Below, piece after piece: positions 1,147 through 61,152 of a stretch of DNA of 64,000 bases (position 1 is its first letter; every line of letters begins with the position of its first letter). Source of the DNA: Mycoemilia scoparia (taxonomy: Eukaryota > Kickxellomycota > Kickxellomycetes > Kickxellales > Kickxellaceae); the NCBI GenBank assembly GCA_027575805.1, contig JANBPU010000040.1, forward strand, positions 1 to 64,000, written 5' to 3'. The notes under the pieces were generated by a model, which did not search any database, was not told the origin of the DNA, and saw only the letters and a list, made by a program, of their open reading frames with translations. The position numbers and the translations under genes are program-made.

Positions 1147-2526
1147 TTAGCTCTTTGTGTGCGCTAAAGAGGGGGGTAGCTCCTTGTGATAAGATGTAAC
1201 CTTTATCCTAAAAGTTATGGCTTTTTTGACATACTTTAGGTTCAAGAACCACCTCCAAAATTCACCAATACTCGGGTTGAACATGAAGGCAATGAAATTG
1301 AGTATTCCTTGTGAGGCAGGCAATAGTGTACTCAACAGGTAAACCGGGAGCGGTGAGAGCTGGGTGATCTGAGTAACAACAGCGATAGTCCTGGTGATTA
1401 TTGGAACCAAGGGGTACAACATAATTCTCAGGATGGTGTTACGAACATGTCTACGGTGACGATCCGTTACATGGGTCGTTGGTAAATTTTGGGTGTGATT
1501 CATCCCGCCGCCAGAAGCGCCTGGATATTTCTGATCATTTGGCCCCTTTGTTCCATTACCGTTTACAGTGTTTCCAGAATTATCGGTCTCTTTCTCTTCG
1601 TCACCTGTATCACGACCAGACTCATTGTTTCCCGGGTCCTTTTTATTCCGTCCAAATCTTTTCCGAAGCATACCCAATGTCCTTGATGATGATCGGCTTT
1701 GTTCAATCTGCTCCTTTGAAGGCTCTGGATGATTGAAGACCTTTTTAGTTTTCATTCCGATAAGCATTGGCATAAGCTTTAGTACCAAGAAGAAGCAAAT
1801 TATCAGCATATAGCCAATTCCACCGACCATCCATGCCATGAATGTGCCCCACATTATTCTGATTCCCTCGCTGTTCGATGTGCTTGTGTATATGATCTGA
1901 TACTCAGGAAGCCAAACGACATCTTTGAATACATAAAGGGTAGGCTGCGTGACAATAAAGGCTGCCAGGATGCTAACCGCCTCGTAGTATGGATTCAGCA
2001 TGGCAGCAATATGGCCTTTATTATGCAGAACAGCAAGCTGGAGCTGTAGGACGATACAGTCGGTGAGAAAAACAAAGGCCACGGACGTAAACATTAGCGC
2101 AAAATTGATGAATTTTACATGGCCAACAGGGATTTTGCTCATATACTCGTTGAATAACTTTACGATTTTGGCCGAAGACATGATAATGTCCATGGCTGCA
2201 ATCCACGCTGATAGTCGGAATGATGGACGAAGCGCGACTTCTCTTTTTATGAAGAAGAGGGAAACCACAATGGCTATAACGACGACCGAGAGTACGATAG
2301 AAGTAATGTCTAGGGCGAACTCGACATATACCCACTTGCCCATGATGGCATTAAACATTCCATGGACATCAGTGGTTGTTGCTCCTGGAGAAAGAGAATC
2401 ATCACTAGAATCCAAATCGTCGGAACCATCATTGGATTGTGGCGCCCTCTTGAAAAGAAGGGCTTGTAACATCGGATTGACTGGATCCAGGAGCCAGTAA
2501 AAGACGTTGTTGAACGCTAGGTCCAT
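1147..2526 (-). CDS. 7TM receptor-like protein 1
   Basis: A 459-residue integral membrane protein of the window's 7TM family, probably a plasma-membrane G-protein-coupled receptor. The extracellular N terminus (about 1-68) is acidic and Ser/Asp-rich. Hydrophobic segments lie near 70-93, 103-122, 138-162, 182-203, 227-256, 363-390 and 396-420. Family motifs are RPSFRLS at 100-106, a degenerate QLQLAVLHNK at 161-170, a YYE at TM4 (180-182), RIMLYPLVPIIT at 367-378 and FMFNPSIGEFW at 414-424. The third cytoplasmic loop (about 257-362) is long, basic then Gly/Asn-rich and low-complexity, as in the paralogs. It is encoded without introns. It is more distant from the other copies than 5 and 6 are from each other. 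The ligand is unknown, and relation to Git3/Gpr1-type fungal receptors is an inference from topology and the YP in TM6. Confidence 0.8.
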   Translation of the reverse strand: MDLAFNNVFYWLLDPVNPMLQALLFKRAPQSNDGSDDLDSSDDSLSPGATTTDVHGMFNAIMGKWVYVEFALDITSIVLSVVVIAIVVSLFFIKREVALRPSFRLSAWIAAMDIIMSSAKIVKLFNEYMSKIPVGHVKFINFALMFTSVAFVFLTDCIVLQLQLAVLHNKGHIAAMLNPYYEAVSILAAFIVTQPTLYVFKDVVWLPEYQIIYTSTSNSEGIRIMWGTFMAWMVGGIGYMLIICFFLVLKLMPMLIGMKTKKVFNHPEPSKEQIEQSRSSSRTLGMLRKRFGRNKKDPGNNESGRDTGDEEKETDNSGNTVNGNGTKGPNDQKYPGASGGGMNHTQNLPTTHVTDRHRRHVRNTILRIMLYPLVPIITRTIAVVTQITQLSPLPVYLLSTLLPASQGILNFIAFMFNPSIGEFWRWFLNLKYVKKAITFRIKVTSYHKELPPSLAHTKS

Positions 2527-4460
2527 GTCAGTGGTTGTGCTAGAAGATTTTTAGTAAAGAAAGGCCAAGAAAGTTTAGAGTGTTGTGAGGGTTGTTGGTG
2601 TCTTGAGAAATCAGACCATCCACGGTTTATAACAGTATCAAGCTCAAGGAATTTCTGAGTCAGGTGGAGAGTTTTGCTGCGAATTGCACAGGATAAAGAC
2701 ACTGGCCAGCAAGCAATTTTCTTCCCACAGCATAAACAAAGACAAGTACAAGAGGAGAGGATAAGGCATGGCCTGGCATCTTGATGATCACTTGATAAAA
2801 ATTGTAATGCAGCCAAAAAGCCAATTTTGTATGTCAAGATATGACTGCAAATGTCCCTATAAAAGCTGATTGTCCTTTTCCTATTATTGAAGTTGGGATA
2901 CCTTGGACCAAAATGCTGACAAGAATTGTGCAATAATGTTAGGAAGACAATTAGGACCACATGGCTTTCTGGTGAGCCAACATACATACCCCAAGTACAT
3001 CAATCTATGTCTTTGAATGCAACCGTACCTTATTATAAAATAACCAATAAACATTAACTTGATGAGAAACAAGTATTCGCAATCCCACTATAAGTTTTTT
3101 ATTTGCTGGCTTTAAAACACAATATATACCTGTGCATCAATACGAAATTATGGCTGATAATAAAAACATAAGAAACCTTGGTGCATAGGTGTGTAGCTAT
3201 CTGTGTTACTTGTTGGATAATGGTCGTTGATTTCAATCTGTGAATGTTTTATCTGCCCTTATTGTGACGGGTTTGGTAAACAATGTAGCTCTGCTCCACA
3301 ATTCAATTTGTAAAATAGCAGCATAGTTTTGTTTTTATTTTTTAAGGCATCCGAAAATATAAAATATTCTTTTCATGAGGGTTTAAACTGGTTTCATGGG
3401 TTGTTTTAGCGTAAACTTTCACATTATTTATTATATCCTTGAGCTTATGCTATTTGAGTTATAAAATATAAAAATATATATCCGCAAAATGCATTAATGT
3501 CTAGGTATATATTCTAAACTATGTCGCTATATTTTGGTCTCCTTTAATACAATCATTAGATTGACATTGCTCTATAGGAATGCTACTATGGATAAAAATT
3601 CTACATTCTTGAAAATCGTTCTGCTCTATTACACGTTTCCTTTAAAGTCATGTATTACGTACAAAATCGACAATCCAATGTACTGATATGTAATAACAAT
3701 GATGATGATGATGGTTGCTGATCAGGTTGAAGATAAATGTATTGTTTTAAAGCAAATGTCATCTGAGTACGTGCATCTGTATATTGTTCGATTCTGATGT
3801 GCCATTTTACTTCTGCAATATGTAATAAGGATAGCTAATTATACAGCCGTTGCACTATCGGATACTATGTTTGAAATTACAATACTAATTGGTATAATAA
3901 ATCGAGAAAGAGTCTACAAAATGCAATGTCATGATTCTGTACATGGTACAAATTTTGAATGGGATGCTACATTGGAACTGCCAATCCACGAGACCAAATT
4001 TATAGAGATTATATTCTGCCATTGCTTTTACATTATACGCACAATTAAAGAGATCTACTTTAGCACTTTAGCAAAAAAAATTGGCACGAATTATATTATA
4101 ATGGTCTGGTGTCTTCTCCAAAATAGACTAAAGCAAAGTCATGAGGAATTGAGCACAATTGAATGTTTTAGACAGCAGCTGTGCTTAAACATGTGGCTGA
4201 CTTATGATAGATTCTTTGTCATGATGTTATAACATCAGCTCTGTAACAATGAAAAGAGTGTTTAGTATGTCGGGTAGAGTGGTGCTATCTTTTTTTAAAA
4301 ATTATAAAAGCACAAATGTTGAGCATATAACGTATTTTTGCCTCAGTATTTTTAATAACCCAATAAATAATTCTCATTTAAACAATTTTTTGAAAAGGTT
4401 TCGAGTTGGTTCATAATATTCTAATATCTTTGTGTTAAATGTTTACTATAAATTAGAATT
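2527..4460. other. Intergenic DNA
   Basis: Long AT-rich non-coding region upstream of receptor 1 and downstream of QNG1. It contains a short GAT microsatellite near 3700-3714. The open frames here (for example minus strand 2517-2987 and plus strand 3867-4232) have no recognisable domain or protein-like composition. Confidence 0.5.
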
Positions 4461-8042: not shown

Positions 8043-8360
8043 TGACCGACTATGGATTGGTCCCTATGCACTTTGATGACCCATAAACACTTCTTAATCC
8101 CAGCCATAAGGATCGCTGTGTCACTCTTCAGCCGAGCCTACAAGTCCAATTGATAAAACCGCTTATGTAGTCTATATAATCTTGATATCCTCTTTTAGAA
8201 ACTTGTACCTATCTAAATATCGCACACCTTTCCTCTGGACCATTTCACGCCTCTCTGTTCGTCAATTCTTTTTTATATTTAATATTTGACTTAGAGGCTA
8301 TTGATATTTATCAGCTTGGGCTTATATTTACTTACTTATTTATAAATCATACTTTTTCAT

Positions 8361-13896: not shown

Positions 13897-13935
<39 letters not shown>

Positions 13936-14000: not shown

Positions 14001-15338
14001 TTAAATAAGAACTCTTTCCTTTGTAGAGTCATTATCAGCAATCGGTACTTCAGCAAAAGATACTTTGTCTGGAGTACCTGAAGATGAGTTAAAGGCTGAG
14101 CGATTGCCTGACCCTCGGTTGCTAGAATTTCCGTGAGTGTCGCTACCTGAGCTGCTGCTGTTTGTTGTGTTGAAAGATTTTGCTTTCCAAATCCTAGAGT
14201 CAAAAGGTGCGCTAGGTGGAGATGCAAACAAACTCAAGTTGTGGTTTCCGGTCTTGTATTTTGTGATGAGCTGTTTGGCCTTTCGTTTGATGGTTCTCCA
14301 CGCAGGATCAAGATGTGGGTTGATCATGAAAATGATGAAGTTAAGAAGACCGCCAAGATTGGGCAGAATAATAGTTACATTCGCCAATATAATGCTTGGA
14401 TTAACTATAGAAAGATATGCTGGCATTATTGGAGAAGTGATAAATGGAATGATGGAGTATAGCGCGATTCTGACTACAGCAAACCTGACTTCTCGACGAC
14501 GACGCTCACTGATGCTGTGACCATTTTTTGAGTTACCTAGCAACTGGGATGATGTTATGTAGTTTGGATGCTCTGTAGAACTTTTCCTCTTGTCCGCTAG
14601 GGAAACATCTGTATCACTAGCAATATTCTCTCTCCCTCCCTCTGGCAACATCAAGACATTGCAGTTTACTTGCTTCCAGACAGGCATCAGTCGGACAATT
14701 ACGAGAATACACACAAACAAACAATACAAGAGAGCCATCGCGCACCAGCCATACATCAGCCACACAATAATTCTAATCCGAACAAGAGAGTAATCGGCCA
14801 TGATAATGATGTTAAGCCCTTTAATCTTTAAGCAGCGATTGTAGACATAGAACATCGGATGAGCAATAATAATGGAGATTGACCACGAAATCAATTCATA
14901 CCATGGACTAAACTTCCTGGCCAGCTTTTGCTTGTTAAGAAGGGCCGTGAGGTGCAGATGGAATGCAATGCAGGCAGTAGTGAAAACCAACACATTGTAG
15001 CTTGAAAGATGGAAAAAGAACAATGTGCGGAGTTGCATTTCAGACAGCTTGTCAGTAAACTTTTCGTCATTAACGATGAGCTGGATTATAGAATACAAGG
15101 TATCAGCGATGGCAATAGATGCTGAGAGTCGAAAGGAGACACGGTCTATCATGTCATGCTTTCGAGCGTAGAAAATGACGGTACCAACGACTATTGAGCA
15201 GAGAAGGATATTGAGAATGCTGAGTGCCTGGATGGTCTGTATTAGCCCTGTAATGCGAGCGTGCACTGCAGTATAGTACATTCCGTGGCCACCCGACTGG
15301 GGACCCTCGTGAGGCGGAAAGAAGTTCAAAGATGTCAT
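14001..15338 (-). CDS. 7TM receptor-like protein 2
   Basis: A 445-aa single-exon 7TM receptor-like protein. Hydrophobic segments lie near 33-56, 70-90, 105-130, 146-167, 190-218, then about 285-310 and 320-345 after a short third loop. Family motifs are RVSFRLSASIAIAD from 66 (the usual Pro is Val), HLHLTALLNKQKLARK at 127-142, WYELISW at 146-152, FYVY at 163-166, RRREVRFAVVRIALYS (YS replaces YP) and FMINPHLDPAW in TM7. The tail is Ser/Asn/Gly-rich and ends ERVLI. It resembles receptor 7 most closely, especially in the TM2-TM4 block (VNDEKF...KL / INNEQF...KL, AHPMFY / AHPAFY). It is likely plasma-membrane and G-protein coupled, ligand unknown. Confidence 0.82.
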   Translation of the reverse strand: MTSLNFFPPHEGPQSGGHGMYYTAVHARITGLIQTIQALSILNILLCSIVVGTVIFYARKHDMIDRVSFRLSASIAIADTLYSIIQLIVNDEKFTDKLSEMQLRTLFFFHLSSYNVLVFTTACIAFHLHLTALLNKQKLARKFSPWYELISWSISIIIAHPMFYVYNRCLKIKGLNIIIMADYSLVRIRIIVWLMYGWCAMALLYCLFVCILVIVRLMPVWKQVNCNVLMLPEGGRENIASDTDVSLADKRKSSTEHPNYITSSQLLGNSKNGHSISERRRREVRFAVVRIALYSIIPFITSPIMPAYLSIVNPSIILANVTIILPNLGGLLNFIIFMINPHLDPAWRTIKRKAKQLITKYKTGNHNLSLFASPPSAPFDSRIWKAKSFNTTNSSSSGSDTHGNSSNRGSGNRSAFNSSSGTPDKVSFAEVPIADNDSTKERVLI

Positions 15339-19034: not shown

Positions 19035-21344
19035 ATGTCTCTGTTAGTACTACCAGCATATCAACTATATACACCGCTTGAATCCGATATTTATCGATTT
19101 GATATTGACCAATACAAAACTCCGATACAGGTCCTCACTATAATATCATTTATAACATCCTTCTCATGTATTCTAATTTCATTCCTACATAGCCAACACC
19201 TGAAAAAATTCAGTGCTGCACCACAAACTCAGCAAATGAAGCTTGCAACATTAGTAGCTGCCACAGACATCATCCTATCTGTATCACAGCTCCTGATGGT
19301 AGATAACTCCATTATGTGGGGCTATTCATTGACAGGTCTCTCTGTTCATCTATGGCTGACTCAGGCTGCAACTGTCGCATTTGTTTTTTACCTGTTGGCC
19401 ATGAACCTACAAATTCTTTTAACAAGCATATGTGCCAAACCATCCCTTTCAAGGCTTCTGCAACCATGGTATGAGTTTGGCGCAGCTTGCCTAGCACTAT
19501 TGCTCACACATCCAGTCTTCTACTTATACTCTCCTCTCCAATGGTCAGAGCCTGACCGTTCATTTGTCTCCGATGATATATACTCGGTCCAAAAGCTCCG
19601 CGGGTATTCATGGGTAACGCTCTGGCTATGGATTGTTGCTGGGCTTGTATGTTGTCTATGCTCAACCGTCTTTATAACGATCAGATTATACCAACATCCC
19701 ACACGCTTTGGAACATCACAAGGATGCAGATCCAAGCCAATATTTTCTGAAATTGATTCCACAACCAGGTACAACCGGATGCTGTCTACGTATTTTGAGT
19801 CTGTTGTCGATTGGCATCGACACTTCAACCTACAAAAGCCACGCTTTGGTTCGCCATACAATATTGGCTATGGAAAAATGAATGAAAAGTGGACCCCAAC
19901 TCCAACTCTAAGTAGCTCTAGCAATGCCAATATCTTTTCAGGCACCAATAGGAGTCATGTCTACCCCTTTTACTCATTGTCAAGTGTCTCATCCGAGATC
20001 ACTTTAACACCCCTTGAAAATAATGATCGGCCTACATCCAGTACTGCAAAATCAATACCTCTATCTCGCCCTGTCAGCAGCAACAGTAGCCAGATAATAT
20101 TATCGTCAAGGCTCGAAAAATCAACTCTACTCAAACCATTATATGATCCGGTTGCTGCATTCATAGTCAGAAACTATTGCATGCCAACCAATGTATCTCC
20201 TCCCTCGTCAACATTTGCCAGGTTACGTAGGTCACATCAAAACCACCAAGCCAATAAACTTTCTTATGACAAATACACAATCCACCGTCTATGGATCCAA
20301 CTGTTATATCCTTTGGCCCTTCAGGTCTTGGCTCTACAAGTTGCAATGTCTGAGCGACCAATATATGTAATAAGACTTTTGGTCATATTTCTTTCGTCGC
20401 TGCAAGGGATCTTCAACTCCATAATGTTCATTGCAAACCCACTACTAAAACCATATTGGGTACATCTTGGGTATCGCTGGAGAATTCATTTCTTGCAAAG
20501 ATTATCGTTACCCTCTCCTATTGTCACTTTCAGTAGGCCACAAAGTAACTACACTCAAATGGAATCCTCTTTTTGGACAACTACTACTAAAAGCTGTGAC
20601 AGTCTTGGCATTGATTCTGGAGTTCCTATTACTAAAAAGGATCCCAGCTCGCTCACATCGATATTTTCTTCATTGTCCAAAGCTAATACAGACATACCTG
20701 ATCATCAAAAATTGGCAACAAGCTACCCTATGAAACAACAGACTATTGCCTACCATACTCAGGAAGAACCGGATACAGATGTCAATGCAATAAAAGTTCC
20801 CACATTACAACGTCTAGTAAATGGAAAGCAATATACTAGAGTTATACCATCTACGGCAGATACTGTTGCTGAAGCAATAAAAGAGAACGATGCAGCAAAT
20901 AAAGTGTACGCGAATCCACTACGCTGCACACTACCTACCCTGCCTGAACTCTGCCATATTAACCAACCTATGTACCTCCCAAAAGGATCCACTGAAATAG
21001 CAACTTGGGTTAAAATGCCAGTGTCAAAGCAACTAAGATCAGTCAAAAGTATACAAACCCCATCTAGCCAAAAACAGACAAACCAATACAAAAACGATGA
21101 TCTTTTGCCTAGAGATCTGATAAACTTGAGGGGATCGTCTCACAATATTAAAAGCCCAAGTCAACTGCGAATATATCTACAACACGAGCAGTCGGAAGAT
21201 GCCAGGACGCCTTTATCATCAGTGGTGTTGGTACCTTATGAACAATCTGAAAGATCGACTCAACTGGCGTCAACAATAAGAAAGCTTGAAGGTATTAAGG
21301 ATAGGAACATCAGTGCCCCTGAATCCCATGCATTTCCATATTAA
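19035..21344 (+). CDS. 7TM receptor-like protein 3 (divergent, long tail)
   Basis: A 769-aa single-exon protein and the most divergent family member. TM segments lie near 31-52, 68-90, 104-130, 143-165 and 190-215. TM6-TM7 lie near 420-480 (LWIQLLYPLALQVLALQV, SSLQGIFNSIMFIANPLL). Shared landmarks are WYEFGAACLA at TM4, HPVFYLY, LLYP in TM6 and SLQGIFN with NP in TM7. The RPSFRLS motif that starts TM2 elsewhere is absent (AAPQTQQMKLATLVAATD instead), and LHLTAVLNK is replaced by LQILLTSIC. The third cytoplasmic loop is about 200 residues and the Ser/Thr-rich tail about 280 residues, much longer than in paralogs. CT-rich DNA precedes the ATG. It could signal differently from its neighbours. 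Confidence 0.75.
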   Translation: MSLLVLPAYQLYTPLESDIYRFDIDQYKTPIQVLTIISFITSFSCILISFLHSQHLKKFSAAPQTQQMKLATLVAATDIILSVSQLLMVDNSIMWGYSLTGLSVHLWLTQAATVAFVFYLLAMNLQILLTSICAKPSLSRLLQPWYEFGAACLALLLTHPVFYLYSPLQWSEPDRSFVSDDIYSVQKLRGYSWVTLWLWIVAGLVCCLCSTVFITIRLYQHPTRFGTSQGCRSKPIFSEIDSTTRYNRMLSTYFESVVDWHRHFNLQKPRFGSPYNIGYGKMNEKWTPTPTLSSSSNANIFSGTNRSHVYPFYSLSSVSSEITLTPLENNDRPTSSTAKSIPLSRPVSSNSSQIILSSRLEKSTLLKPLYDPVAAFIVRNYCMPTNVSPPSSTFARLRRSHQNHQANKLSYDKYTIHRLWIQLLYPLALQVLALQVAMSERPIYVIRLLVIFLSSLQGIFNSIMFIANPLLKPYWVHLGYRWRIHFLQRLSLPSPIVTFSRPQSNYTQMESSFWTTTTKSCDSLGIDSGVPITKKDPSSLTSIFSSLSKANTDIPDHQKLATSYPMKQQTIAYHTQEEPDTDVNAIKVPTLQRLVNGKQYTRVIPSTADTVAEAIKENDAANKVYANPLRCTLPTLPELCHINQPMYLPKGSTEIATWVKMPVSKQLRSVKSIQTPSSQKQTNQYKNDDLLPRDLINLRGSSHNIKSPSQLRIYLQHEQSEDARTPLSSVVLVPYEQSERSTQLASTIRKLEGIKDRNISAPESHAFPY

Positions 21345-33305: not shown

Positions 33306-33429
33306 GTCAACCAACATTCCACCCTTTTCTTGTCATTACAAAACTCACATTTCATCTTCGCATCATAGTCATCATCTACTTTACACAGGGACAATTTGTA
33401 TATTTTTATCCAGTTCAGCATCATCAGCA

Positions 33430-34017
33430 ATGTTTAGCTTTACCAAGTCCATCTCCGCCACCGCTCTTGTCGTTGCCGCTCTTTCCTCCCTTGCCGCAAA
33501 TGTTGTTGCCTGGCACGACGTGGCTGTAGCAGAACTTCAATGCAAAGACTTCTGCGGCACCTTCACATTCTCTGAGGGCAGCCTCAGCAAGGGCAAGTAC
33601 CAGACCCTCATCAACGTCAAAGTTGACAGATCCAATCCCGCCGAGCACTACATGTGGCACATCCATGACAATCCCGTTGCTGCTGGCGACCAGACCTGCG
33701 AATGTAACTCTGTTGGCGGTCACTTTAACCCTACTAAGATTCCAGAAGGAACCAAGTGTGACCCCTCTTGTGCCGTCGATACTTGCCATATGGGTGATCT
33801 TGCCGGTGTCTATGGCAACATCACTGGTGGAAGCTACACTGGCAAATTTGAAGGAAAGAAGCTCAACCTCTACACTCCAACCAAGTTGGCCCAGGCCGGT
33901 ACTTCCATTGTTGTTCACGACTGTAATGGAAAGAAGGTTTGCTGTGGTACCATTAACCTTGTTAAGGATGTAAAGGGTAACCCCGTCCTTCGTGGCAGTA
34001 GTACCAAGAAAAACTAA
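33430..34017 (+). CDS. Secreted Cu/Zn-superoxide-dismutase-like protein A
   Basis: A 195-aa product with a signal peptide (residues 1 to about 27, cleavage near VVA|WHD). The SOD_Cu fold is visible: copper-ligand-like histidines 77 and 79 (MWHIHDNPV), 98 (VGGHFNPT) and 163 (SIVVHDC), plus His120 and Asp123 in CHMGDLAG, equivalent to zinc ligands of Cu/Zn SOD. The second zinc histidine (His71 of human SOD1) has no counterpart in the loop after GGHFNP. The active-site arginine position (RLACG) reads KVCCG, so Lys replaces Arg. N-glycosylation site NIT lies at 130-132. It resembles extracellular fungal SOD-like proteins. The C terminus has no GPI signal. Catalysis of superoxide dismutation is plausible but unproven. 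It is paralogous to the gene at 62996. Confidence 0.88.
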   Translation: MFSFTKSISATALVVAALSSLAANVVAWHDVAVAELQCKDFCGTFTFSEGSLSKGKYQTLINVKVDRSNPAEHYMWHIHDNPVAAGDQTCECNSVGGHFNPTKIPEGTKCDPSCAVDTCHMGDLAGVYGNITGGSYTGKFEGKKLNLYTPTKLAQAGTSIVVHDCNGKKVCCGTINLVKDVKGNPVLRGSSTKKN

Positions 34018-37951: not shown

Positions 37952-39781
37952 TTACACAATCCGGATATTGTTGGGACCACTATGTTGATTTTGAGTTTCA
38001 GATGATGCGTTGTTATTCCAAGGAGGATACGTAAATCCATCGCTCAGATGCTTTTGGTTTTTGGAATTAGTAGAATTAAACCCGTTATTAGCAATCTGGT
38101 GAACATCACCATGGCCGTCATCATCATTGGGAATGGCAAATACTGTATTACTTCCATCGTGTATTTGATGTAACGAAGTCGGTGTAGGGTATGGAGCAAC
38201 TCGGCTATTAACTACTCCAAAACTACTGCCATTGGTACCAACCCCGCCAAACTGACCAATCGAGTCCTTTTGAAATGAAGAGTGATAATGGTCACCCCAT
38301 TGACTAGTCGATGTTGGGGGATACCTGAACGTCAGTCCACTAGGGTTGGCGGCAACATTTGCTCTATCACTGTGACTCGTGCTTGGCTTATCTCCATAGT
38401 AATGGTTTTCCTCCTCGTCATTAAAGCCATCTGTATTAACTTTGTTATTAGCAAGCATCTTTGTAATGTTGCGGATATTGCTGGTGCTCTGATCAGAATG
38501 GTTCGAGCGGCGACGGCGAAGGCGTAAAGTTTTACGAATTCGCTTGAGCACTGCCTCACGGATATCATCAAGAGCGGGATTGGCCAAAAACACCACGAAA
38601 CACAAAAATCCCTGTAACGATGGCATAACAATGCCCATTGTCGATGTCCAGTCTACATTATCAGTGCTCACGTATATCGTGATCCATGGGCTGCAAAGTA
38701 TAGGGATGATAGGGTAAAGCACAAGACGGATGATGGTGTAACGGATGACCCTGCGGCGCTGCTTCTTCACTGGGTCGTTGTAGCTTTCTCCCGTAAGGGG
38801 TGGCCCACCCTTGGATGTACTATGCTTGAAGCTGTCAAAGCGGACATTGGATACATGGCGTGGGTTATTGAACATTTCGCCTATCTCGCCACCATGGAAG
38901 CTAGAAAGCTGAGTTGGAGGTGTGTTGTAGAGCTCTGAATTTTTGTTCCATGGGCTTAGCTCATCCTTGGCTTGCTGAGGGGTGGATCCAACAAAGTGGC
39001 CAGATGGTGGGTTGTGGTGAGGCGTAGCACTGGAAGATTTTCCATTTGAGGCCTCTGGAATCCGTAGGCGGTCACTGTTCAGCCTTGTCCAAATGGGCAG
39101 TAGGCGAAGCGCGACCCAGGAACATATGACAAAACAGTAAACAAGGCCGATGATATTCCAAACATAGAGCATCCAGAATTGGATCAGCAGCTTCCTTCCC
39201 GAGCTCGAAGTAACAGCGATGATAGAGTATTGTTTGATCCTTACAACATCTTCAAAGAAATAGAAGAAGAGCTGGGAAACGAGAATGGTGAGAGACCAGG
39301 CAATGAGTTCATAAAACTTGCTAATCTTCTTTGCAAACCGGTGCTTATTATAAATAACAGTCAAGTGAAGGTGGAAGGCAATACAACATGTGGTGAATAC
39401 AAAAGCATTGTGACTGCATGAATACATGAACATCAGGGCTCTTAGGTGTCTTCCCTTCATGCGGTCCATAATCGAGTCAGTATGCCATATTATCATGCAT
39501 AGAGCGAATAATGAATCGGCGACAGCAAGAGAGGCAGATAAGCGAAAAGATGGTCTCATGCCGATATTTGGCTTTACAAAGCAGTATCCAGCAACTGTGA
39601 TGATAATAATCGAGGCCATTACTAGATTAGCGATGGCCATGTTATAGCCAACAGTAGACATACCAGTCATCTTGGCATAGAGGAGCTTTGCGACCCAGCC
39701 TGGAGGTGCATTTGGGTGAACGAGTGGTAGAGCCCACTCGCTCTCCAGTTCGTAGTACCGACGGACTAGCCCACTAATCAT
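37952..39781 (-). CDS. 7TM receptor-like protein 4
   Basis: The preferred start is ATG at 39781 (609 aa: MISGLVRRYYELESEWALP). The open frame extends 71 codons further upstream, but that part looks unlike the family. The seven TM pattern is intact. Family motifs are RPSFRLSASLAVAD, LRALMFMY, HLHLTVIYNKHRFAKK, FYELIAWSL, RRRVIRYTIIRLVLYPIIPI and FLANPALDDI (the usual aromatic FW after Asp is absent). The third cytoplasmic loop (about 150 residues) is rich in Pro, Asn and His. The C-terminal tail (about 150 residues) is Ser/Asn/Gly-rich and ends NNIRIV. It is a probable plasma-membrane receptor. CAG and CGG-like triplets upstream and a GC-richer 5' region suggest a long leader. No intron was detected. 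Confidence 0.82.
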   Translation of the reverse strand: MISGLVRRYYELESEWALPLVHPNAPPGWVAKLLYAKMTGMSTVGYNMAIANLVMASIIIITVAGYCFVKPNIGMRPSFRLSASLAVADSLFALCMIIWHTDSIMDRMKGRHLRALMFMYSCSHNAFVFTTCCIAFHLHLTVIYNKHRFAKKISKFYELIAWSLTILVSQLFFYFFEDVVRIKQYSIIAVTSSSGRKLLIQFWMLYVWNIIGLVYCFVICSWVALRLLPIWTRLNSDRLRIPEASNGKSSSATPHHNPPSGHFVGSTPQQAKDELSPWNKNSELYNTPPTQLSSFHGGEIGEMFNNPRHVSNVRFDSFKHSTSKGGPPLTGESYNDPVKKQRRRVIRYTIIRLVLYPIIPILCSPWITIYVSTDNVDWTSTMGIVMPSLQGFLCFVVFLANPALDDIREAVLKRIRKTLRLRRRRSNHSDQSTSNIRNITKMLANNKVNTDGFNDEEENHYYGDKPSTSHSDRANVAANPSGLTFRYPPTSTSQWGDHYHSSFQKDSIGQFGGVGTNGSSFGVVNSRVAPYPTPTSLHQIHDGSNTVFAIPNDDDGHGDVHQIANNGFNSTNSKNQKHLSDGFTYPPWNNNASSETQNQHSGPNNIRIV

Positions 39782-43241: not shown

Positions 43242-43243
43242 CA

Positions 43244-43361
43244 AATTGCAACACCAGGTGTTCCCACTTGGTCCCCCACAGTAGTACTCTCCTGGCCATA
43301 ACGAGCTTGGTTACGGTGATCGGACGGGAACCGACATTTTCTCGTTTGTATGGTCTCAATT
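43244..43361 (-). rRNA. 5S ribosomal RNA
   Basis: On the minus strand the sequence reads AATTGAGACCATACAAACGA ... CCGTCCGATCACCG ... AAGCTCGTTATGG ... GAGTACTACTGTGGGGGACC ... GGGAACACCTGGTGTTGC. These are the conserved 5S elements: GACCATAC, the CCCGTCCGATC loop, the box A region AAGC, the box C region GTACTACTGTGGGGGACC and GGGAACACC. The first and last ten bases pair to form helix I. A T6 run lies just after the 3' end, the usual RNA polymerase III terminator. It stands alone, unlinked to other rDNA, as in many fungi with dispersed 5S genes. The length of about 118 nt is normal, with ends uncertain by a few bases. Confidence 0.9.
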
Positions 43362-49670: not shown

Positions 49671-49695
49671 GTTTGTGTGTGTGTGTGTGTGTGTC
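49671..49695. repeat. (TG)n microsatellite
   Basis: About 12 GT units in the presumed 5' leader region of receptor 5. Confidence 0.85.
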
Positions 49696-50008: not shown

Positions 50009-51793
50009 ATGCTGCTGCCTGACGTAAAGGATGGTATTCTTCAGCCTAGCGGAAATCTTGGTAAATATGTGTATCTAGCCATTTACACAAAGCAGTTCCA
50101 GTGGGTTGAAACCCTCCATGCATTCAACATCGCCAGCATCATCCTTTCATCCATAACCATACTGATCGTCGTTTGCTGTATCCGGCACCGTGACTTTGTC
50201 GATCGGCCATCCTTCCGGCTGTCGGCGTCAATTGCCTTTGGTGACATATGCTACTCGCTGGGCCATATCCTGCTATACAACACCAGTGTCGACGAGCCCA
50301 ACATGGAAGAAAGCAAGCTGCGAGCCATGTTCTGGCTCTGGTTTTTTGGTCTTGGCCTGATGGTCTTTTCGACCACCTGCATTACCCTACATCTCCACTT
50401 GACTGCTGTTTTGAATAAGCCCCTGCTGGCAATCAGGCTCAGCTCGTGGTATGAGGTGTTTGCCTGGACTGTTTCTTTTGCTGTATCACAGCCATTGTTT
50501 TATATTTATGTTAAGCTCTTGCAGGTTCCCACATTCAGGACGGTTGTGCTGATTGAAACTTCAAAGAAAAGCATCCGAGCAAAGGCATGGTTCATCTACA
50601 TCTGGATGGCCATTGCGCTGGTCTACTGCTTGATTGTTTGCATCCTGGTAGTCGAGAGGTTGTTTCCAATATGGAGACGAAGCACAGCAGAGCTAAGAAG
50701 ACCCGAGGGACACGATAACAGCAGCCATGGGAGCAATACCGGCAGGGAGATGATGGGCCGATCAGTAGCATCCCAAACAGGCCATACTGTATATGAGCGT
50801 CGCCAACAAGCAGCGGCCGCAGCGGCTGCATTGGCTTCTGGAAGAGAAAAATTTCAAAATTACAATTCTTCTTCACGACAGAACAATGGGGTTAAACCAC
50901 CCTTATTATCATCAATGGCGATTTCAAGAGGCGCCGGGAATATTTCACACATGCTTAATAATGCCAGCAATCATAATATCAGGGAAAATAGCTTGTCAAA
51001 CAATGATCGCCGCTATCTTCCAAATTCATTGTCTGAATCGTTTTCCTTTGGAGGACGAGATATGCCGCCACCCCGCGATCCAAATAGCAGTCTGGGTGCA
51101 GGGGGCGGCGGACCACCGCTTACATCTGCATTGCTTTTGACTACGAATCCTAGAATTAAGTCTCAAGCCTATCTACATAAAAGGAAGAGAGAGATTGAGC
51201 TGATGGTTCTCCGCATCTTTATATATCCGTTAATCCCATTGATAACAACAATCTGGCAACCAGTTTATCACACACTAGTCGATTCATCAATCACTCTCGG
51301 CTATGTCTGCTTGCTCATGCCATCCATGCAGGCTATTTTTAACTTCCTTGTATTCTTGATTAATCCCACAATGGATGAGTTTTGGCGAAAGGCATGGCTT
51401 GGTCTGCGAAGGAGATACAATGATTATCGCAATACTCCCGGCACATTTACCCGACTTGGAAGCATCTTTGGCTGTCCCGATCCTGCCGGAAGAGAGAATA
51501 TTCGCAGCTGGCCTCTTTCTCCTTTGGCAATCGAGTCTAATACTGATACAACCAAGCTTCCCACGCCATATAAAGTATATTCTACCAGCAGTGAGAATTC
51601 GCTCACTAACAATGATGCCAAAGTCGGTGCTTCCAATGTTGCTGCTCCTACTACACGTGGTCGCCGTACAATAGGCGAATCGTATAATAATCTACATACA
51701 CAAAACGGGAGCGGCGGTCTTTATAACCTGGATATCAGTTACTCAGACGAATACCTTGCCTCCAAAGGATTGCCACGGCGAACGATGATTTGA
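50009..51793 (+). CDS. 7TM receptor-like protein 5
   Basis: A 594-aa single-exon receptor-like protein. TM1 is about 38-58, RPSFRLSASIAFGD at 66-79, TM3 about 107-131, HLHLTAVLNK at 128-137, SWYEVFAW at 146-153, FYIY at 164-167 and TM5 about 195-221 ending PIWRR. The third loop (about 222-390) carries an Ala-rich run (QQAAAAAAALASG) and Ser/Asn-rich sequence. TM6 follows RKREIELMVLRIFIYPLIPL, and TM7 has FNFLVFLINPTMDEFW. The tail ends LPRRTMI, a class-I PDZ-ligand-like Thr-x-Ile. It is very similar to receptor 6 over TM1-TM2 (LSSITILIV.CCIRHRDF block), and the two genes converge 2.7 kb apart. A long CT-rich leader precedes the start. Plasma-membrane location and G-protein coupling are inferred. 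Confidence 0.85.
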   Translation: MLLPDVKDGILQPSGNLGKYVYLAIYTKQFQWVETLHAFNIASIILSSITILIVVCCIRHRDFVDRPSFRLSASIAFGDICYSLGHILLYNTSVDEPNMEESKLRAMFWLWFFGLGLMVFSTTCITLHLHLTAVLNKPLLAIRLSSWYEVFAWTVSFAVSQPLFYIYVKLLQVPTFRTVVLIETSKKSIRAKAWFIYIWMAIALVYCLIVCILVVERLFPIWRRSTAELRRPEGHDNSSHGSNTGREMMGRSVASQTGHTVYERRQQAAAAAAALASGREKFQNYNSSSRQNNGVKPPLLSSMAISRGAGNISHMLNNASNHNIRENSLSNNDRRYLPNSLSESFSFGGRDMPPPRDPNSSLGAGGGGPPLTSALLLTTNPRIKSQAYLHKRKREIELMVLRIFIYPLIPLITTIWQPVYHTLVDSSITLGYVCLLMPSMQAIFNFLVFLINPTMDEFWRKAWLGLRRRYNDYRNTPGTFTRLGSIFGCPDPAGRENIRSWPLSPLAIESNTDTTKLPTPYKVYSTSSENSLTNNDAKVGASNVAAPTTRGRRTIGESYNNLHTQNGSGGLYNLDISYSDEYLASKGLPRRTMI

Positions 51794-54466: not shown

Positions 54467-56359
54467 TTATAAAATAATGGTGCCTGAATAAAGACGCTTG
54501 TAGACTTCTTCATCATACTTGTAAGCCGGCCCTTCATCCGAATGGTTGCTATGGATAGAGAAGCCACTGCTGCCATTGACGTTTATGTCATTTGTACGAT
54601 TGCCAGATGCTGCTCTATGGCTTTGGCCGAAATGCTGCTGCTGCTGCTGATGTTGAATGTTTGGTGAATGTGGTGGAGAGGTCATTGTGCCCCTGTTGGC
54701 TGGAATACCAAGGGTATTGGAAATGCTGTTGCCATAGTAATAACTGTTATTGTGTGCGGGAATAATGGTCGAGCTGTTGCTAAGGTGGTGATGATGATGG
54801 CGGTTGTTATTGGCAATTGGAGTGGCACTGGTTTGAGAAAAGTCATTGGGAATGCTTTCGGAACTTCTGTTGGAATGGCTACTAGACAGGTATGATATCG
54901 AATCTATGGCCAAATGACCATTAAGGTGGTTTATGTTTTTGATGACAGTCGCACCATGGTTAGTTCCAGCCAAAGTACCATTAAAGCTAGTACTAAGAAC
55001 CCCATCAATAGTATTAACAGCATGGCTTGGAGGAAAGCCATGTGGTTGTTGTCCATTATTGACTGTCGTGGCATTGTTTTTCTCACAAACAACATTATTG
55101 CTACCTCTACCGCCTCTGGATGCCCACCATTCCTTGAGATTGGATCGGAGCTGTCTCCAAAAGTTATCCATGGTAGGGTTAATTAGAAAGATGACAAAGT
55201 TGAATATACCTTGCAGAGATGGCATCAAAAGACACAGGTGCCCAAGCTCAATCGGGGCATCGACCGCAGTGTGGTAAGCAATAATCCATGGCGTGGTAAT
55301 GATGGGTATAAGTGGATATAAAAAGAGCCGCATAACCATGAACCGAATCTCTCTTCTGCGACGGGCAATGTAGGCAGGCTTTTTGCTAAATGTGCAAGTT
55401 GGGTTGAAGAGATACGATGCCTGGATAACACCATTTCCAAAGTTTGCTGGAAGGCAGGCATCGCTTCTTTTTCCAATACTCATGGCTACATTTTCGGGAC
55501 TCATTCCTAGCTGTGTCTTTGGAGTGCCGTCGGAATTAAAGCCAGCTGCACCACTTTGAGCTGCGCTAAGAACGGTGTTGCTTTGCTGGATGGGATAGTA
55601 AGATGTTCCGGCATAGTTTTCGGTAGGATGGCTGTCGCTGCCTTCAGGGCGATTAAAGGATATCTCAGCAGCAGTTCGTCGCCATATAGGAAGAAGCTTG
55701 AACACAACCATAGTGCAAACGGCCAAACACCAGAGGATGCCCAAAGCCATCCACACGTAGATAAGCCAGGCCTTGGTCCGGATGTCCTTCTTGCTTCCAT
55801 CGACAATAACTAGAGATTGGATTTCGCTGATTTCAAAGATATCTTTGTATATGTAAAACATAGGCTGAGTAATGATAATAGCTAAAGCCCAGGCAACAAG
55901 TTCGTACCACCGACTAAGCTTGCGGGCTAGCTTGGACCTGTTAAGTATAGCGGTAAAGTAGAGATGAGTCGCAATACAGCAGGTCGCAAAAACCATGACG
56001 GCCATACCTAAAAACCATAGCCAAAACATCGCCCGAAGCTTAAGCTTGGGTGTTTTGCTCGTGTACTTTTGATTATAGAGAAAAACGTGGCCTAGTGCGT
56101 ACAATATGTCTCCAAGGGCTATGGATGCTGATAGTCGGAATGACGGCCTTTCAGTGAAGTCTCTGTGGCGAATACAGCACAAAACAATGAGTATTGTGAT
56201 GGATGAGAGAACTATGCAGACGATATTGAGGTTATAGATAGGGGCCATCCATGGGTATTTTTTACTATATGTGACTAGGAAGACCATTCCGCGGTATATC
56301 CCGGATGTCGTTCTTGGGTTTAGAACCATATCTGGGGGTAGCTGTGGCATCAGGTCCAT
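54467..56359 (-). CDS. 7TM receptor-like protein 6
   Basis: The preferred start is ATG at 56359 (630 aa, MDLMPQLPPDMVLNP), because the extra 53 upstream codons look like leader DNA. The seven TM pattern is complete. Motifs: IRHRDFTERPSFRLSASIAL, LRAMFWLWFLG, HLYFTAILNRSKLARK (Tyr-Phe in place of His-Leu), WYELVAWAL, FYIYKDIF, RRREIRFMVMRLFLYPLIPI and FNFVIFLINPTMDNFW. The third loop (about 190 residues to 330) is Ser/Asn-rich. The tail (about 180 residues) has His and Gln runs (HHHHH, QQQQQQ) and ends YSGTIIL. It is the closest relative of receptor 5 and is transcribed towards it. It is a probable plasma-membrane receptor with unknown ligand. Confidence 0.85.
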   Translation of the reverse strand: MDLMPQLPPDMVLNPRTTSGIYRGMVFLVTYSKKYPWMAPIYNLNIVCIVLSSITILIVLCCIRHRDFTERPSFRLSASIALGDILYALGHVFLYNQKYTSKTPKLKLRAMFWLWFLGMAVMVFATCCIATHLYFTAILNRSKLARKLSRWYELVAWALAIIITQPMFYIYKDIFEISEIQSLVIVDGSKKDIRTKAWLIYVWMALGILWCLAVCTMVVFKLLPIWRRTAAEISFNRPEGSDSHPTENYAGTSYYPIQQSNTVLSAAQSGAAGFNSDGTPKTQLGMSPENVAMSIGKRSDACLPANFGNGVIQASYLFNPTCTFSKKPAYIARRRREIRFMVMRLFLYPLIPIITTPWIIAYHTAVDAPIELGHLCLLMPSLQGIFNFVIFLINPTMDNFWRQLRSNLKEWWASRGGRGSNNVVCEKNNATTVNNGQQPHGFPPSHAVNTIDGVLSTSFNGTLAGTNHGATVIKNINHLNGHLAIDSISYLSSSHSNRSSESIPNDFSQTSATPIANNNRHHHHHLSNSSTIIPAHNNSYYYGNSISNTLGIPANRGTMTSPPHSPNIQHQQQQQHFGQSHRAASGNRTNDINVNGSSGFSIHSNHSDEGPAYKYDEEVYKRLYSGTIIL

Positions 56360-59300
56360 GGCTATATTGTGTTGTCTTGTGAAATCAAATGAATAACAAG
56401 TGGCGTATATAAAGACGGATTTATAGGTGATAGATGTGGTAGCTGATGTAGTAGGAATATTGGTGGAAGAGGCAAGATAAAAAGAGAGTAAAATGTATAT
56501 GAAACGTAATACAAACAAACACCACCACTACTACTACCGCCACAGATATTATATAGAAAGAAACAGTGGGTCTACAAAGGGCCGTTGGTGGGGATTTGAA
56601 TTTAAATAACTGGAAAAGACTCGGGCTGAATGTGTACAGATTTTGGGGAAAGGGTCTGGCACTTAAAAAGGACCTGATGTAAGTAAAGGGTGCTAAGGAG
56701 ACACAGGTATTATAGGCTGAAAATGCTAGTGTGATATTAAGGAAGATGTTATTTTCTTTTTTTAGAGAAAGTCTTTAGGTCTTTGGATGCTTTATATAAA
56801 CTCTCAAATCCGATAGAAGCAAACAACGGCATGAATCTCGCTAGTCAAACCAAGTGCCTATGACAAAGGCTCAAACATGAAACATGGCTGGCTGGCAGGT
56901 CTTATTCTTTCTTCTTGACGCTAAGCGAAGCATTAAAGGTGGAAATCCCTACAAGCTTCGTTTGGTGCTACCTAAATTGGTGGACATTTAAATGCAAGGA
57001 TCTTCCACTACGCTGCAGTACCCGTTTTCTCAACCCCACAGACATATCCACACACCTGTTTGAAAAACAAGGGCACAAAGGAGTGCAGGGAAATATTATT
57101 ATTAATGTTGAGCTGCAACATTTTGCTCACTGGCTAGCCGAGCCTTTCTCAGTAAAAGCGCTATTATTGACCACTTATCAAGTACAAATAACGAAACCAC
57201 AGTCTTTGAGCCATTATGGATTACATACTACTAACACTGATACAAATACTCGCATGCACGAATATCGCTACTCAATCATTTAGTACAGTTGGCATCGACC
57301 AAAGTACATTCTATTTTTACATTTTTGTGGTTGATTGAGCAAGAAATTCAATACTTCAAAACAACAACCAAGCTCAAGTTTTCGATCATTATCACAGCAG
57401 ACGCATGTGCGTGTTCTAGAGGAAGGGAAAGAGGTCATAGTTAAACACCAAATTGCCATACAGCCAATTTCCTATACAGGCGCTAATATATCATAGATAG
57501 TCCAAAACCATATTATTATTTTTGTGTGCATGTTTACTTAATTTGGAGCACAGGCACGTCATTGCTATTATCCCTCCCTTCTCTGCATGACCATCGCCTC
57601 TTTTGCTTTTCAACCCTTTTTGTACAATAAGAGTGGTCAATTATAGAAGATTGGTAAACTAGCCATGTTTATCCATCCTCAACGCATTTCCTATTCACTT
57701 TTATTTTATGGATTTATTATTAGAAACATATGTTTAAAAGTTGTGCGATTAAGTTCTTTGCACACATACATCATGATTTAGAGGTGGTTTTATGGCAAAG
57801 TATGACATAGGAATATCACTAAACCTTATTGTGTTCATAAATGAGTTATACAAGTAAATCTTATTTTGGCAATTAGTCATGATTGGCAGTGAGAGATCTC
57901 CTTCCTATATATCAGACTTGTACTTTGTCTAATTCACTAGTTCCAGGATCGTTGCTACTAAAGCTGTAGCTATCAGCGAGTATATAATAAACACAGTACC
58001 ATATAAATCCTATACCTCATCAACTAGCTAATATGATGTACAGTATCTAAAGACTAAGTGTTATTCATCAAATGCATGCTACTGGAAGGAGTGGCTTTAA
58101 TGGTCCATATATATATTACAAAAACAGCATATCATTTTTCTTTGGTGCCTACTTGCTTTATAAAAGATCGATATCTGATAGCAAATAATGAATATAGATT
58201 AATATATTTATGGGAAAACAAAACGAGTTCACATCTGCCTAGCAGAGCCGAAAGTTTGCCTATTTTTAGCCTTTAGATTCTTTGTATATGGTCGAGTTGT
58301 TTGCATCCAATGACAAACATGACTACACTAATGTGCAAGTATGGTCACAAGGATTGAAAGTGGGGGACTATGTACCTAGAGCACGTTTTATAAGGTAAGT
58401 ATACGTGGTCATAGGAATCCACCACGATATGGGGCATTGGATTTCCAGCCCATTTGCTTGTGATAAACCAGAATAATCCCGGTTCATACTGGTATTAGAA
58501 AGCGAGACCACCACAATTTACTATTTTTAAACAATTGTGTTGATTGCAGATCAATTGTAATTGACAACATGTTACACATAATAGTATCCCTTACCCATCA
58601 CCGAATATAACAATGAAAATATTATAAGGAATTCGAAACCTTATTCTATAAACTAAATGAGAGCTATCATTAATAGCTTAAAGATTTATAAATGTAAACA
58701 TAAGGTGATAGAGTCAAATTTGATATACTATTCCTGTGATCACAATGGTGTGGATTTGGTATAGAGCGATAATTTATTTATAGGATCAAGCTTTGCTAGT
58801 AATCAGCCGTAAAATGACCATGTGTGGCCCTGGCCGAAATTACATTTTGTTATTAAACACTATCCCAACAGATTATAACTCAGAGTTAGAGTTATTTTAG
58901 TCAGAGTAGGTGTGCTGTAAATACTTTTCAGCTTTATTTTTGGGTCCATTTTTGTATAACTTTTTGTGGTTTTCAGCCATATAGCGTACACGTAAAGTGC
59001 TGACTCACTCTTCATCTTAGTCTTTCTTCACAATGTCGCTTCAACATCCAATTATTGTACTATTGAGTATACCAACAAACTGATTATACTGTTCAGTAAT
59101 AATGTTACACAATCTTATCTACTACATTGTTTCTGTATAGTCATTTTGTGTCATTCACAGATTACATGTTAGAAACAGTCTTCTTCAGCAGCTTCTTGTT
59201 AATGCAAATTTACAGTAGAAAGTTGACAATAGCAAGATAATGGTGGATTTAGGTATATGGGTAGTTATTTTTGAAGGACTAAATTAATATTATCAATGAT

Positions 59301-59667
59301 AATATAAGCTTGGCCAGTATGCGAGATGAAATTGGCATATTAGTAAAAATAAATAACCATTCAAAAATAAACACATATTATGTGATGTTGAGCAAATTTA
59401 TCAGATAACTAAATGCAATTTAAAAGACTACTTTGCCGAAAGACTTTACCTGAAGTGTGCAAAGAGGATTTCGTGATGTGCATTACTGTATTTAAAGGTG
59501 AAAGCGATGGTGGTATAAAATTATATAAAGTTGATGGATATATAAAAAGAGCCAATTTGAAGAGAGAGCAAGAATAGCTGAAAATAGAATAAAACAAATG
59601 TGTTGATGTGTAAGGAGGTATGAAAAAAGTGAATAAAATATTGGTACAGCCTATTGTTTGTATACCA
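56360..59667. other. Intergenic DNA
   Basis: About 3.3 kb upstream of receptor 6 and downstream of receptor 7, AT-rich. An R1-related element lies at 59256. Frames at 56915-57283 and 58058-58276 have no recognisable domain. Confidence 0.45.
59256..59377. mobile_element. R1-related MITE, subfamily copy
   Basis: Left end TGGGTAGTTATTTTTGAAGG, right end TTCAAAAATAAACACATA. About 118 bp. The left inner part (ACTAAATTAATATTATCAAT) matches the remnant at 30163-30215 but not the main R1 copies, so it marks a subfamily. Confidence 0.6.
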
Positions 59668-61152
59668 CTAATTTGTATCTAGTGGTGGTGGATTTTCAGG
59701 AGGAATGTTGCTCGTTTTAGATAGCCTTTGTTTTTTTAGCTTTACCAGGCCAGCCCAGAATGAATCCAGCATCGGGTTGATTAAAAGTGCAACATGACAT
59801 AGAATGGATTGGCAGCACATTAGAGTCCCACCAATGTCGCTGTATGAAGTAAACCTGCTAGGTGCAACAATGGCGGCAGGAAGAACCCAGCATGTAAGAA
59901 TCGGTATTATTGGGCAAAATGCTATTCGAAGAATTGCAAACTTGATTTTCTTGTCTGCCTCCGATTCCTGTTCTCTCTCCTCACAATCCCCGTTTGCTAG
60001 ATTTGGTCTAGAGTTCGACATATCAAAACTTCTTCTCTGACTGTAATGGTTGTTGGTGGTTTCTTGGTATCCTTGAACCGTATGATTTCTGCTTCTGCTT
60101 TCTAAACCAACATTATTCCAGTCGGTGTTACTTCTATTGGGAGAGGAATGCATGCCTCTACGGTTGTTTCTTGTTGAATCATCCTCTTTTGAATAAACAT
60201 TAATAGTAGAAGACGCGCCTCCATCTGAGTTTAGATCCGCGCTTATATTCTCCCTATGTATCTGCCACCTGCTATTGTCACCACCACTATCACCACCGCT
60301 TTGGTTGTAGTAGTCTCGGCTGTTATTACCATCAGTGGCATAATTCGTGGTCCTTTGAGAAAATGACTGATCAACTCTTAAATCATCCGGAGACAACAAA
60401 GTCTCTGTCTTGTAGCTGTTCAATGTGTCTCCCTCTGGGATAACCAGCTTCCGTGATCTTACCGCAGCGTTTGAAGATGTGCCTTGTCTTCCTCGATGGC
60501 GACCAGCAGCGCTTGGTTTGAATATTGGATATAAAGTAAACCAAACAATGACTATGACTGCAAAGCAATATAATAGACCGACGGCCTGAAAGGAATATAT
60601 TGCGCCACTCTTCATCAAGAAATCTTCGTCTGATTCATCCAGGACCATAAAGTCCTCAACCTTGTTCTTTCTGATAACTACCTTGAAGGCATAGAACGCA
60701 GGATGGGCAAGGATAATCCCAATGACCCAAACACCCAGTTCGTACCATGGACATAGTCTGCGAGCCCACCTTTGTTTTCTGAACACAACTGTCAAGTGTA
60801 GGTGCAAAGCAATGGCAGTCATGGCAAATATGAATGTGCTCATTGATAATATATAGAAGAATAGCAGTGCTCTTAGGCTGGTCTCTCCCAATTTGCCGAT
60901 AAACTGTTCATTGTTTATAAGCAAGGAGATGATGGAAAACATTAGGTCAGACACGGCTGTTGATATCAATAGACGAAACGATGGCCTGGTTATAAACTCT
61001 GGATGTTTTATGCGAGATATTCCAACTATTATCGTAAGTGTAGCTACAGGCAACGTTATATAGCTTAGTATTTTAATCGCATTCGACCAGCCATCGATTT
61101 TGGTGAAAAAGGTCACATAGAATAAGTCGTTTTGCGGTGAGTTTTGCATCAT
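59668..61152 (-). CDS. 7TM receptor-like protein 7
   Basis: A 494-aa single-exon receptor-like protein, closest to receptor 2. TM1 lies at about 30-48, TRPSFRLLISTAVSD at 55-69, TM3 about 94-118, LHLHLTVVFRKQRWARR at 116-132, PWYELGVW at 135-142, AHPAFY at 149-154 and TM5 about 185-211 ending TLYPIF. The third loop (about 215-400) is Ser/Asn/Gly-rich with repeated Arg-Asn-Asn. TM6 starts KIKFAILRIAFCPIIPILT (Cys replaces Tyr of LYP). TM7 has HVALLINPMLDSFWAGL. The short tail ends PPPLDTN, without the hydrophobic ending of receptors 2, 4, 5 and 6. An Asp/Glu-rich second extracellular stretch (DESDEDFL, 172-179) is distinctive and could bind cations or basic ligands. Confidence 0.83.
   Translation of the reverse strand: MMQNSPQNDLFYVTFFTKIDGWSNAIKILSYITLPVATLTIIVGISRIKHPEFITRPSFRLLISTAVSDLMFSIISLLINNEQFIGKLGETSLRALLFFYILSMSTFIFAMTAIALHLHLTVVFRKQRWARRLCPWYELGVWVIGIILAHPAFYAFKVVIRKNKVEDFMVLDESDEDFLMKSGAIYSFQAVGLLYCFAVIVIVWFTLYPIFKPSAAGRHRGRQGTSSNAAVRSRKLVIPEGDTLNSYKTETLLSPDDLRVDQSFSQRTTNYATDGNNSRDYYNQSGGDSGGDNSRWQIHRENISADLNSDGGASSTINVYSKEDDSTRNNRRGMHSSPNRSNTDWNNVGLESRSRNHTVQGYQETTNNHYSQRRSFDMSNSRPNLANGDCEEREQESEADKKIKFAILRIAFCPIIPILTCWVLPAAIVAPSRFTSYSDIGGTLMCCQSILCHVALLINPMLDSFWAGLVKLKKQRLSKTSNIPPENPPPLDTN

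Follow-up and report, generated by a model that had tools for sequence, protein, structure and literature searches.

A genome-wide family of class-A-like seven-helix receptors in Mycoemilia scoparia, probably serving broad chemosensing

A dense patch of a dispersed receptor family

The window analysed here, bases 1-64000 of contig C334 (64,000 of 105,069 bases) of the fungus Mycoemilia scoparia, carries seven genes for paralogous proteins with seven predicted transmembrane helices (7TM; TM1 to TM7) that resemble G-protein-coupled receptors (GPCRs). The original prediction had placed seven such paralogues here, and all seven open frames are indeed present, each open from ATG through TM7, encoding proteins of 445-769 amino acids (aa) that align as one family (Table 1; genes are named by their first coordinate). 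These genes are a dense patch of a genome-wide, mostly single-exon family. M. scoparia is placed in Kickxellomycotina in the NCBI taxonomy; it was isolated from moist-chamber soil and belongs to Spiromycetales, the members of which are generally held to be saprophytic (PMC13276500).

Protein searches of the genome (21.16 Mb in 466 contigs) with the 50009, 59668 and 19035 proteins as queries recovered at least 60 family loci on 41 contigs, with a match to TM1-TM5 at 58 of the 60 and only further on at the loci on C102 and C1. Locus L060 as query added two weaker loci, one on C341 and one, carrying an internal stop, on C207. Another Mycoemilia protein, P0006 (H4219_006100, from an 8,034-base contig), is a family member 41% identical to L023 and has no counterpart among the fetched loci or, as far as could be matched, among the listed open frames, so that 60 is a lower bound. 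Over their aligned parts, the proteins P0002, P0003, P0005 and P0008 match L011, L016, L009 and L071, respectively, with 100% identity. We read 38 members, namely the seven of the window, 28 from among the best-scoring others and three picked as divergent; TM1 to TM7 lie in a single open frame in 37 of these. The frame at L025:54-806, at the start of C409, stops after TM5 near the contig end and could represent either a truncated copy or one containing an intron.

The grouping of the genes exceeds chance. A family neighbor within 20 kb is present for 25 of the 60 loci, compared with a random mean of 6.4 and maximum of 21, and the seven loci in 64 kb exceed the random maximum of 6 (5000 random placements, under a model that ignores contig ends); C334 carries two further copies past the window, at 70240 and 87982. 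The local birth-and-death expansion that had been proposed for the group stands only in part. In a tree of 37 members and four uncharacterized 7TM proteins from agarics (P0009-P0012; 200 bootstrap trees and 500 label shuffles), the window members are slightly clustered (5 label changes versus a shuffled mean of 6.6, with 29 of the 500 shuffles as low), and 50009 and 54467 are local sisters with 98/100 support, the only strongly supported such pair in the window. The family as a whole, however, is genome-wide, and the window does not form one clade, its seven proteins being united in 0% of the 200 bootstrap trees. The 37952 and 59668 proteins form a long-branched pair (90/84); the 1147 protein groups with L072 (93/66) and L055 (99/96); and the 14001 protein, which is identical to P0004, has its sister, L003, on C379. 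The 19035 and 59668 proteins and L071 are flagged as long branches of uncertain placement. Subtelomeric bias was considered and rejected: the loci lie on average at a relative distance of 0.53 from the contig end versus 0.5 (45 loci), 7 of the 27 loci on contigs longer than 50 kb fall in the terminal 10 kb compared with 6.3 expected, and no telomere-repeat array was found at the three contig-end loci examined.

Ordinary genes stand between the receptors, so that the cluster, which occupies both strands, is a dispersed one: queuosine salvage, prenyltransferase alpha repeat, NUDIX, FRG1-like, DcpS, EF-hand, bZIP, proteasome subunit and PAP2 genes, along with two genes for Cu/Zn superoxide dismutase that lie about 29 kb apart. 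A 5S rRNA gene is also located within the cluster, and an open frame antisense to the 1147 receptor is probably a shadow frame. The window yielded no tRNA (ARAGORN, bacterial code) and no tandem repeat with a score of at least 80.

Table 1. Receptor genes and other features of the window
Feature	Position	Strand	Description
7TM receptor gene 1147	1147..2526	-	459 aa, single exon; YYE replaces WYE at TM4
7TM receptor gene 14001	14001..15338	-	445 aa, single exon; AlphaFold model m87ca44ac514d
Divergent 7TM receptor gene 19035	19035..21344	+	769 aa; third loop and tail long; model m4228d25b4a8a
7TM receptor gene 37952	37952..39781	-	609 aa, single exon
7TM receptor gene 50009	50009..51793	+	594 aa, single exon
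7TM receptor gene 54467	54467..56359	-	630 aa, single exon; strand opposite to sister 50009
7TM receptor gene 59668	59668..61152	-	494 aa, single exon
Open frame, probable shadow	1988-2500	+	170 aa, no Pfam match
Cu/Zn superoxide dismutase gene	33307-34017	+	
5S rRNA gene	43243-43361	-	Rfam, 93.6 bits
Cu/Zn superoxide dismutase gene	62996-63646	-	

Seven-helix fold and conserved signature

In a simple hydropathy scan, all seven helices stand out as strong peaks in the 14001 and 59668 proteins only, so that the 7TM assignment rests on the alignment and on structure models. The latter, one of the checks proposed along with the original prediction, yielded a 7TM fold matching GPCRs for both members modeled. 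In the 14001 model, helices 33-61, 67-90, 100-133, 137-159, 185-225, 270-301 and 316-338 were read as TM1-TM7, and a further helix, 341-367, follows TM7. The 19035 model has a mean predicted local distance difference test score (pLDDT) of only 56.5 and a predicted template modeling score (pTM) of 0.52, with a confident helical core; the long tails are of low confidence in both models. By Foldseek and VIA-align, both models match GPCRs, with class A best among the PDB matches listed. Because the PDB is rich in class A, these matches show the GPCR fold and do not settle the class and, likewise, the fact that no class B, cyclic AMP (cAMP)-receptor or Git3 structures are named among the matches listed excludes nothing. 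Judging from these models, the family has a 7TM GPCR-like fold with a helix after TM7.

Over the transmembrane core, the other six window proteins are 21-43% identical to the 50009 protein, and 13 columns of the alignment are invariant. The motifs named in advance are real in most members, with exceptions: RPSFRLS is exact in 4 of the 7 window proteins (RVSFRLS in 14001, RPSFRLL in 59668), WYE occurs in 5 (FYE in 37952, YYE in 1147), NPxxD in 5, and LHLT-x(3)-NK in 3 (LHLTVVFRK in 59668). The 19035 protein is a strong outlier that retains WYE alone of the patterns counted, and yet aligns and is modeled as a 7TM protein. Across 37 members, the signature consists of R-[PV]-S-F-R-L leading into TM2, where D follows in 33/37; C-I-A-x-[HQ]-L-H at the end of TM3; Y (36/37) and E (37/37) at the start of TM4; Y and C in TM5 (32/37 and 33/37); an invariant R (37/37) and a P (31/37) in TM6; and, in TM7, N in 33, P in 37, D in 32 and W in 32 members, with HP in place of NP in 4. 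The N-terminus, third loop and tail are highly variable among the members; for the loop and the tail, the wide differences seen in the alignment are those that had been predicted.

Two short features recur within these variable parts. The otherwise unalignable third loops contain a PEG, PE or EG motif in 26 of the 38 members, a count made without a chance control; in 23 of those 26, it lies 15-20 residues past the RLxP of TM5, and it might be a docking motif (14001 and 50009 are examples). Furthermore, 11 of 31 complete tails, those of 14001, 37952, 50009 and 54467 included, end in two hydrophobic residues (RVLI or IRIV, for example) compared with 3.9 expected, which could be a sorting or PDZ-like signal.

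Class membership

No established family matches exactly, as had been anticipated. The only model above its cut-off among the matches listed, which for the 38 members span 25 of 31 families, is Pfam 7tm_1, for 59668, at 32.5 bits against a gathering cut-off of 30.5, that is, in 1 of the 38 members; the other 37 lack a 7tm_1 match at E<=1, and a whole-genome 7tm_1 search matches at one place only. The suggested likeness to Git3/Gpr1 and cAMP-receptor-like proteins was not borne out. Git3 matches none of the seven window proteins at E<=10 (the HMMER filters drop most matches with E above about 0.1), and the single Git3 match of the genome is a different locus, on contig C157; GPR_Gpa2_C is weak at E<=1 in 3 of the 38 members (best E 0.013), and two of the window proteins score 12.6 and 14.0 bits, below the cut-off of 21. 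Dicty_CAR is missing from the window proteins at E<=10 and from the genome, and 7tm_2 is missing from both as well, these two genome searches having been run without a positive control. Sequence searches of the PDB with the family profiles gave weak matches only (class B at E 0.29 and 4.4; class A from E 0.045 up), and NCBIfam returned a single chance-like match.

The D/ERY triplet at the end of TM3 is present in 0/37 members, the aligned triplet being HLH in 19, QLH in 6 and other in 12, where the equivalence was set by the agaric alignment and by a count of 25 places from the agaric TM3 cysteine. Cysteines lie near the top of TM3 in 3/37, in the second extracellular loop (ECL2) in 12/37, and near both sites in 2/37. 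D stands in place of the Y of NPxxY in 32/37 members. As for the cAMP-receptor marks, 0/37 have N at the first place of NxY in TM3, and TM7 reads [NH]Pxx, followed by D in 32/37. Fungal Rhodopsin members are reported to have D/ERY, NP and two cysteines, and cAMP receptors NxY (PMC3251606), so the family, as read from its motifs, fits neither of the motif sets given there. The absence of D/ERY and the rarity of the disulphide cysteines imply that the switch must differ from that of class A.

It is against this background that a more conventional classification has to be considered, one that is compatible with the functional interpretation developed below, namely, that these proteins are a diverged but ordinary Class 15 (Rhodopsin-like) expansion of the kind reported in Entomophthoromycotina. 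The one member above the 7tm_1 cut-off would fit, as would the concentration of Class 15 in that early-diverging subphylum (PMC12842992) and the 125 putative GPCRs found by Pfam in Conidiobolus coronatus (PMC12387763). Given the near-complete lack of 7tm_1 matches among the members and in the genome, and the absence or rarity of D/ERY and of the cysteine pair, both reported for fungal Rhodopsin members (PMC3251606), we regard this assignment as possible but doubtful.

The profiles also bear on the kind of ligand. The receptors could recognize self-signals, such as peptide pheromones or cues of spore and hyphal recognition, with the breadth reflecting partner or stage specificity. Receptor sets that are large and divergent and vary in their outer halves suit peptide recognition as well, and many of the structural neighbors listed are peptide receptors, although those abound in the PDB. 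However, the STE2 and STE3 pheromone receptor models match 0/7 window proteins at E<=10, and sixty loci would seem many for the pheromone sensing of one fungus, so we consider this explanation improbable.

Conservation, gene conversion and coupling

The inner halves of the helices are more conserved than the outer halves (0.509 versus 0.424, P 2.5e-5), in six of the seven helices. A pair of adjoining paralogues about 7 kb apart on C60, L028:1399-2784 and L029:1294-2760, shows how an inner part might be kept alike. Their DNA is 96.7% identical over 20 codons at the second intracellular loop (ICL2) and 97.5% identical over 120 codons that begin at the end of TM5 and run through ICL3 into TM6, compared with 68.8% outside both stretches; third positions agree at 18/20, 112/120 and, in the rest, 162/316 codons (Fisher P versus the rest 7.5e-4 for ICL2 and 2.1e-18 for TM5-TM6, the stretches having been chosen after a first look). 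This pattern bears what looks like the clear mark of gene conversion confined to the cytoplasmic parts. Gene conversion as a general rule was rejected after a comparison of all pairs of the 38 members: among the best 25 pair rows, this pair alone fits, the next row, L030/L049, having 83.4% over 361 bases within TM1-TM4 versus 70.5% overall, and the remaining rows covering 68 bases or fewer.

Profile and protein searches found two clear G-alpha loci in the genome, on C427 and, divergent, on C224, together with three weak profile matches under the cut-off (C311, C410 and C433), six RGS matches and, in a long frame, one match to a cyclase domain. Few G-alpha loci set against many receptors make a many-onto-few wiring likely. 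The second G-alpha gene, C224:98385-99686 (L063-L066), is apparently intron-split, with three stretches 47-63% identical to C427.

The paucity of G-alpha loci, along with the absence of D/ERY, the long low-confidence tails and the hydrophobic tail ends, would also suit 7TM proteins that keep the GPCR fold and dispense with G-protein action, signaling directly to effectors through long disordered tails or acting in transport. Against this speaks the close match of the fold to GPCRs, the occurrence of G-alpha, RGS and cyclase domains in the genome, and the stronger conservation of the inner face; we find such a scenario unlikely.

Discussion

The interpretation that we consider probable is that M. 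scoparia uses at least 60 mostly single-exon, class-A-like GPCR loci for broad chemosensing, coupled to few G-alpha proteins. The N-terminus would lie outside the cell, and each receptor would bind a ligand of its own, a small molecule or a peptide, within the outer half of the bundle of helices, whereupon the conserved inner face (D of TM2, [HQ]LH of TM3, YE at TM4, R of TM6, NPxxD and then W of TM7) would switch shape and activate one of the few G-alpha proteins, which probably feeds adenylate cyclase and cAMP. Dispersed duplication, along with some local copying, would have enlarged the family and given a presumed soil saprotroph a wide range of chemical perception; chemosensory breadth, as originally suggested, remains plausible.

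Several observations weigh against this interpretation. The trend of conservation is reversed in TM6, perhaps due to badly set helix ends, and stronger conservation of the inner face is widespread among GPCRs generally, so that it is no proof of chemosensing. The N-out topology fits the loop charges weakly: mean net charges of +1.2 for ICL2, +2.8 for the helix after TM7 and -0.6 for ECL1 stand beside +0.2 for ICL1, 0.0 for ICL3 and +0.5 for ECL2. The lack of D/ERY and the scarcity of members with both disulphide cysteines count here as well, the gene-conversion pattern comes from one pair in 38 members, and the number of G-alpha loci, sought exon by exon, is a lower bound.

A bolder reading, which we advance only tentatively, is that the family constitutes a fungal GPCR class of its own, so far unclassified and additional to the 17 of PMC12842992. 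It would be sister to an uncharacterized agaric family and would form the main chemosensory repertoire of Spiromycetales; [HQ]LH/NPxxD would replace DRY/NPxxY as the switch, with the TM3-ECL2 disulphide absent; and evolution would be modular, with inner loops that couple to shared G proteins staying similar, locally through gene conversion, and a ligand-facing half that diversifies.

Large GPCR sets in early-diverging fungi are already known (PMC12842992, PMC12387763). What appears new is an expansion nearly invisible to Pfam, devoid of DRY and mostly devoid of the disulphide, in a presumed saprotroph; no description of the family or of Mycoemilia GPCRs was found in titles or abstract openings in an incomplete literature search. 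The survey of 1357 fungal species defined GPCR classes largely by Pfam domain and also sought new families among other 7TM proteins (PMC12842992). Because 7tm_1 finds one place where at least 60 loci exist, early-diverging fungi may have more receptors than have been counted so far. The family offers a compact system in which to study how ligand recognition becomes diverse with coupling retained, and whether DRY and NPxxY are required for a functioning switch.

Comparison with known systems

Class A (fungal Class 15, 7tm_1) shares with the family the seven helices, the helix after TM7, the best PDB matches listed, the TM2 D, the TM7 NP (33/37) and one member above the profile cut-off; it differs in D/ERY, in the Y of NPxxY, in its disulphide cysteines and in detectability by 7tm_1. 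The cAMP-receptor-like proteins (fungal Class 5, Dicty_CAR) have seven helices in common with the family, which lacks the TM3 NxY, the TM7 NS(A)xxY and, among the matches listed for the seven window proteins, their profile. Gpr1 has a long third loop, as does the family, and Git3/Gpr1 (fungal Class 3) shows the faint GPR_Gpa2_C resemblance, whereas the Git3 profile is missing from the seven window proteins.

C. coronatus is likewise an early-diverging fungus with a large 7TM repertoire; 112 of its 125 putative receptors were assigned to the superfamily groups class-A rhodopsin-like, GPCR and 7tm_1, and C. obscurus has 28 (PMC12387763). The C. coronatus receptors, unlike nearly all of those of Mycoemilia, were found by Pfam, and C. 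coronatus is an insect pathogen rather than a presumed saprotroph.

Closer to home, a fragment from Spiromyces aspiralis, P0007, is 49% identical to L009, so that part of the expansion may predate the Spiromyces split. Profile searches for homologues, which reached a ceiling of about 8000 candidates, recovered at least six Mycoemilia proteins, including 14001, so that the absence of Coemansia, Linderina and other relatives among the matches is meaningless; in a single-sequence search, the query stood alone among the matches, probably owing to low-complexity tails that crowded the 8000 candidates.

The agaric proteins P0009-P0012, from Cylindrobasidium, Mycena and Tephrocybe, share motifs resembling R[VP]SFRL, IA.[HN]L, YY/WYE and R.ALYP with the family. 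P0009 was found at E 6.8e-5 by a family profile built without it, and hhalign of that profile against the four agaric proteins gave 98.5% and E 2e-15 over TM1-TM5; a second profile already held P0009, so that the scores of P0009 and P0010-P0012 there are not independent. DUF6534, an Agaricomycotina family proposed as new GPCRs (PMC12842992), is not listed for them. They differ from the family in their shorter third loops, in DP for the TM7 NP, in N at the first place of the TM3 NxY and in a cysteine before TM3 with another in ECL2, kept in 4/4. Judging from these comparisons, the agaric proteins are distant homologues and, given that all four keep the cysteine pair, the pair was perhaps lost on the Mycoemilia side.
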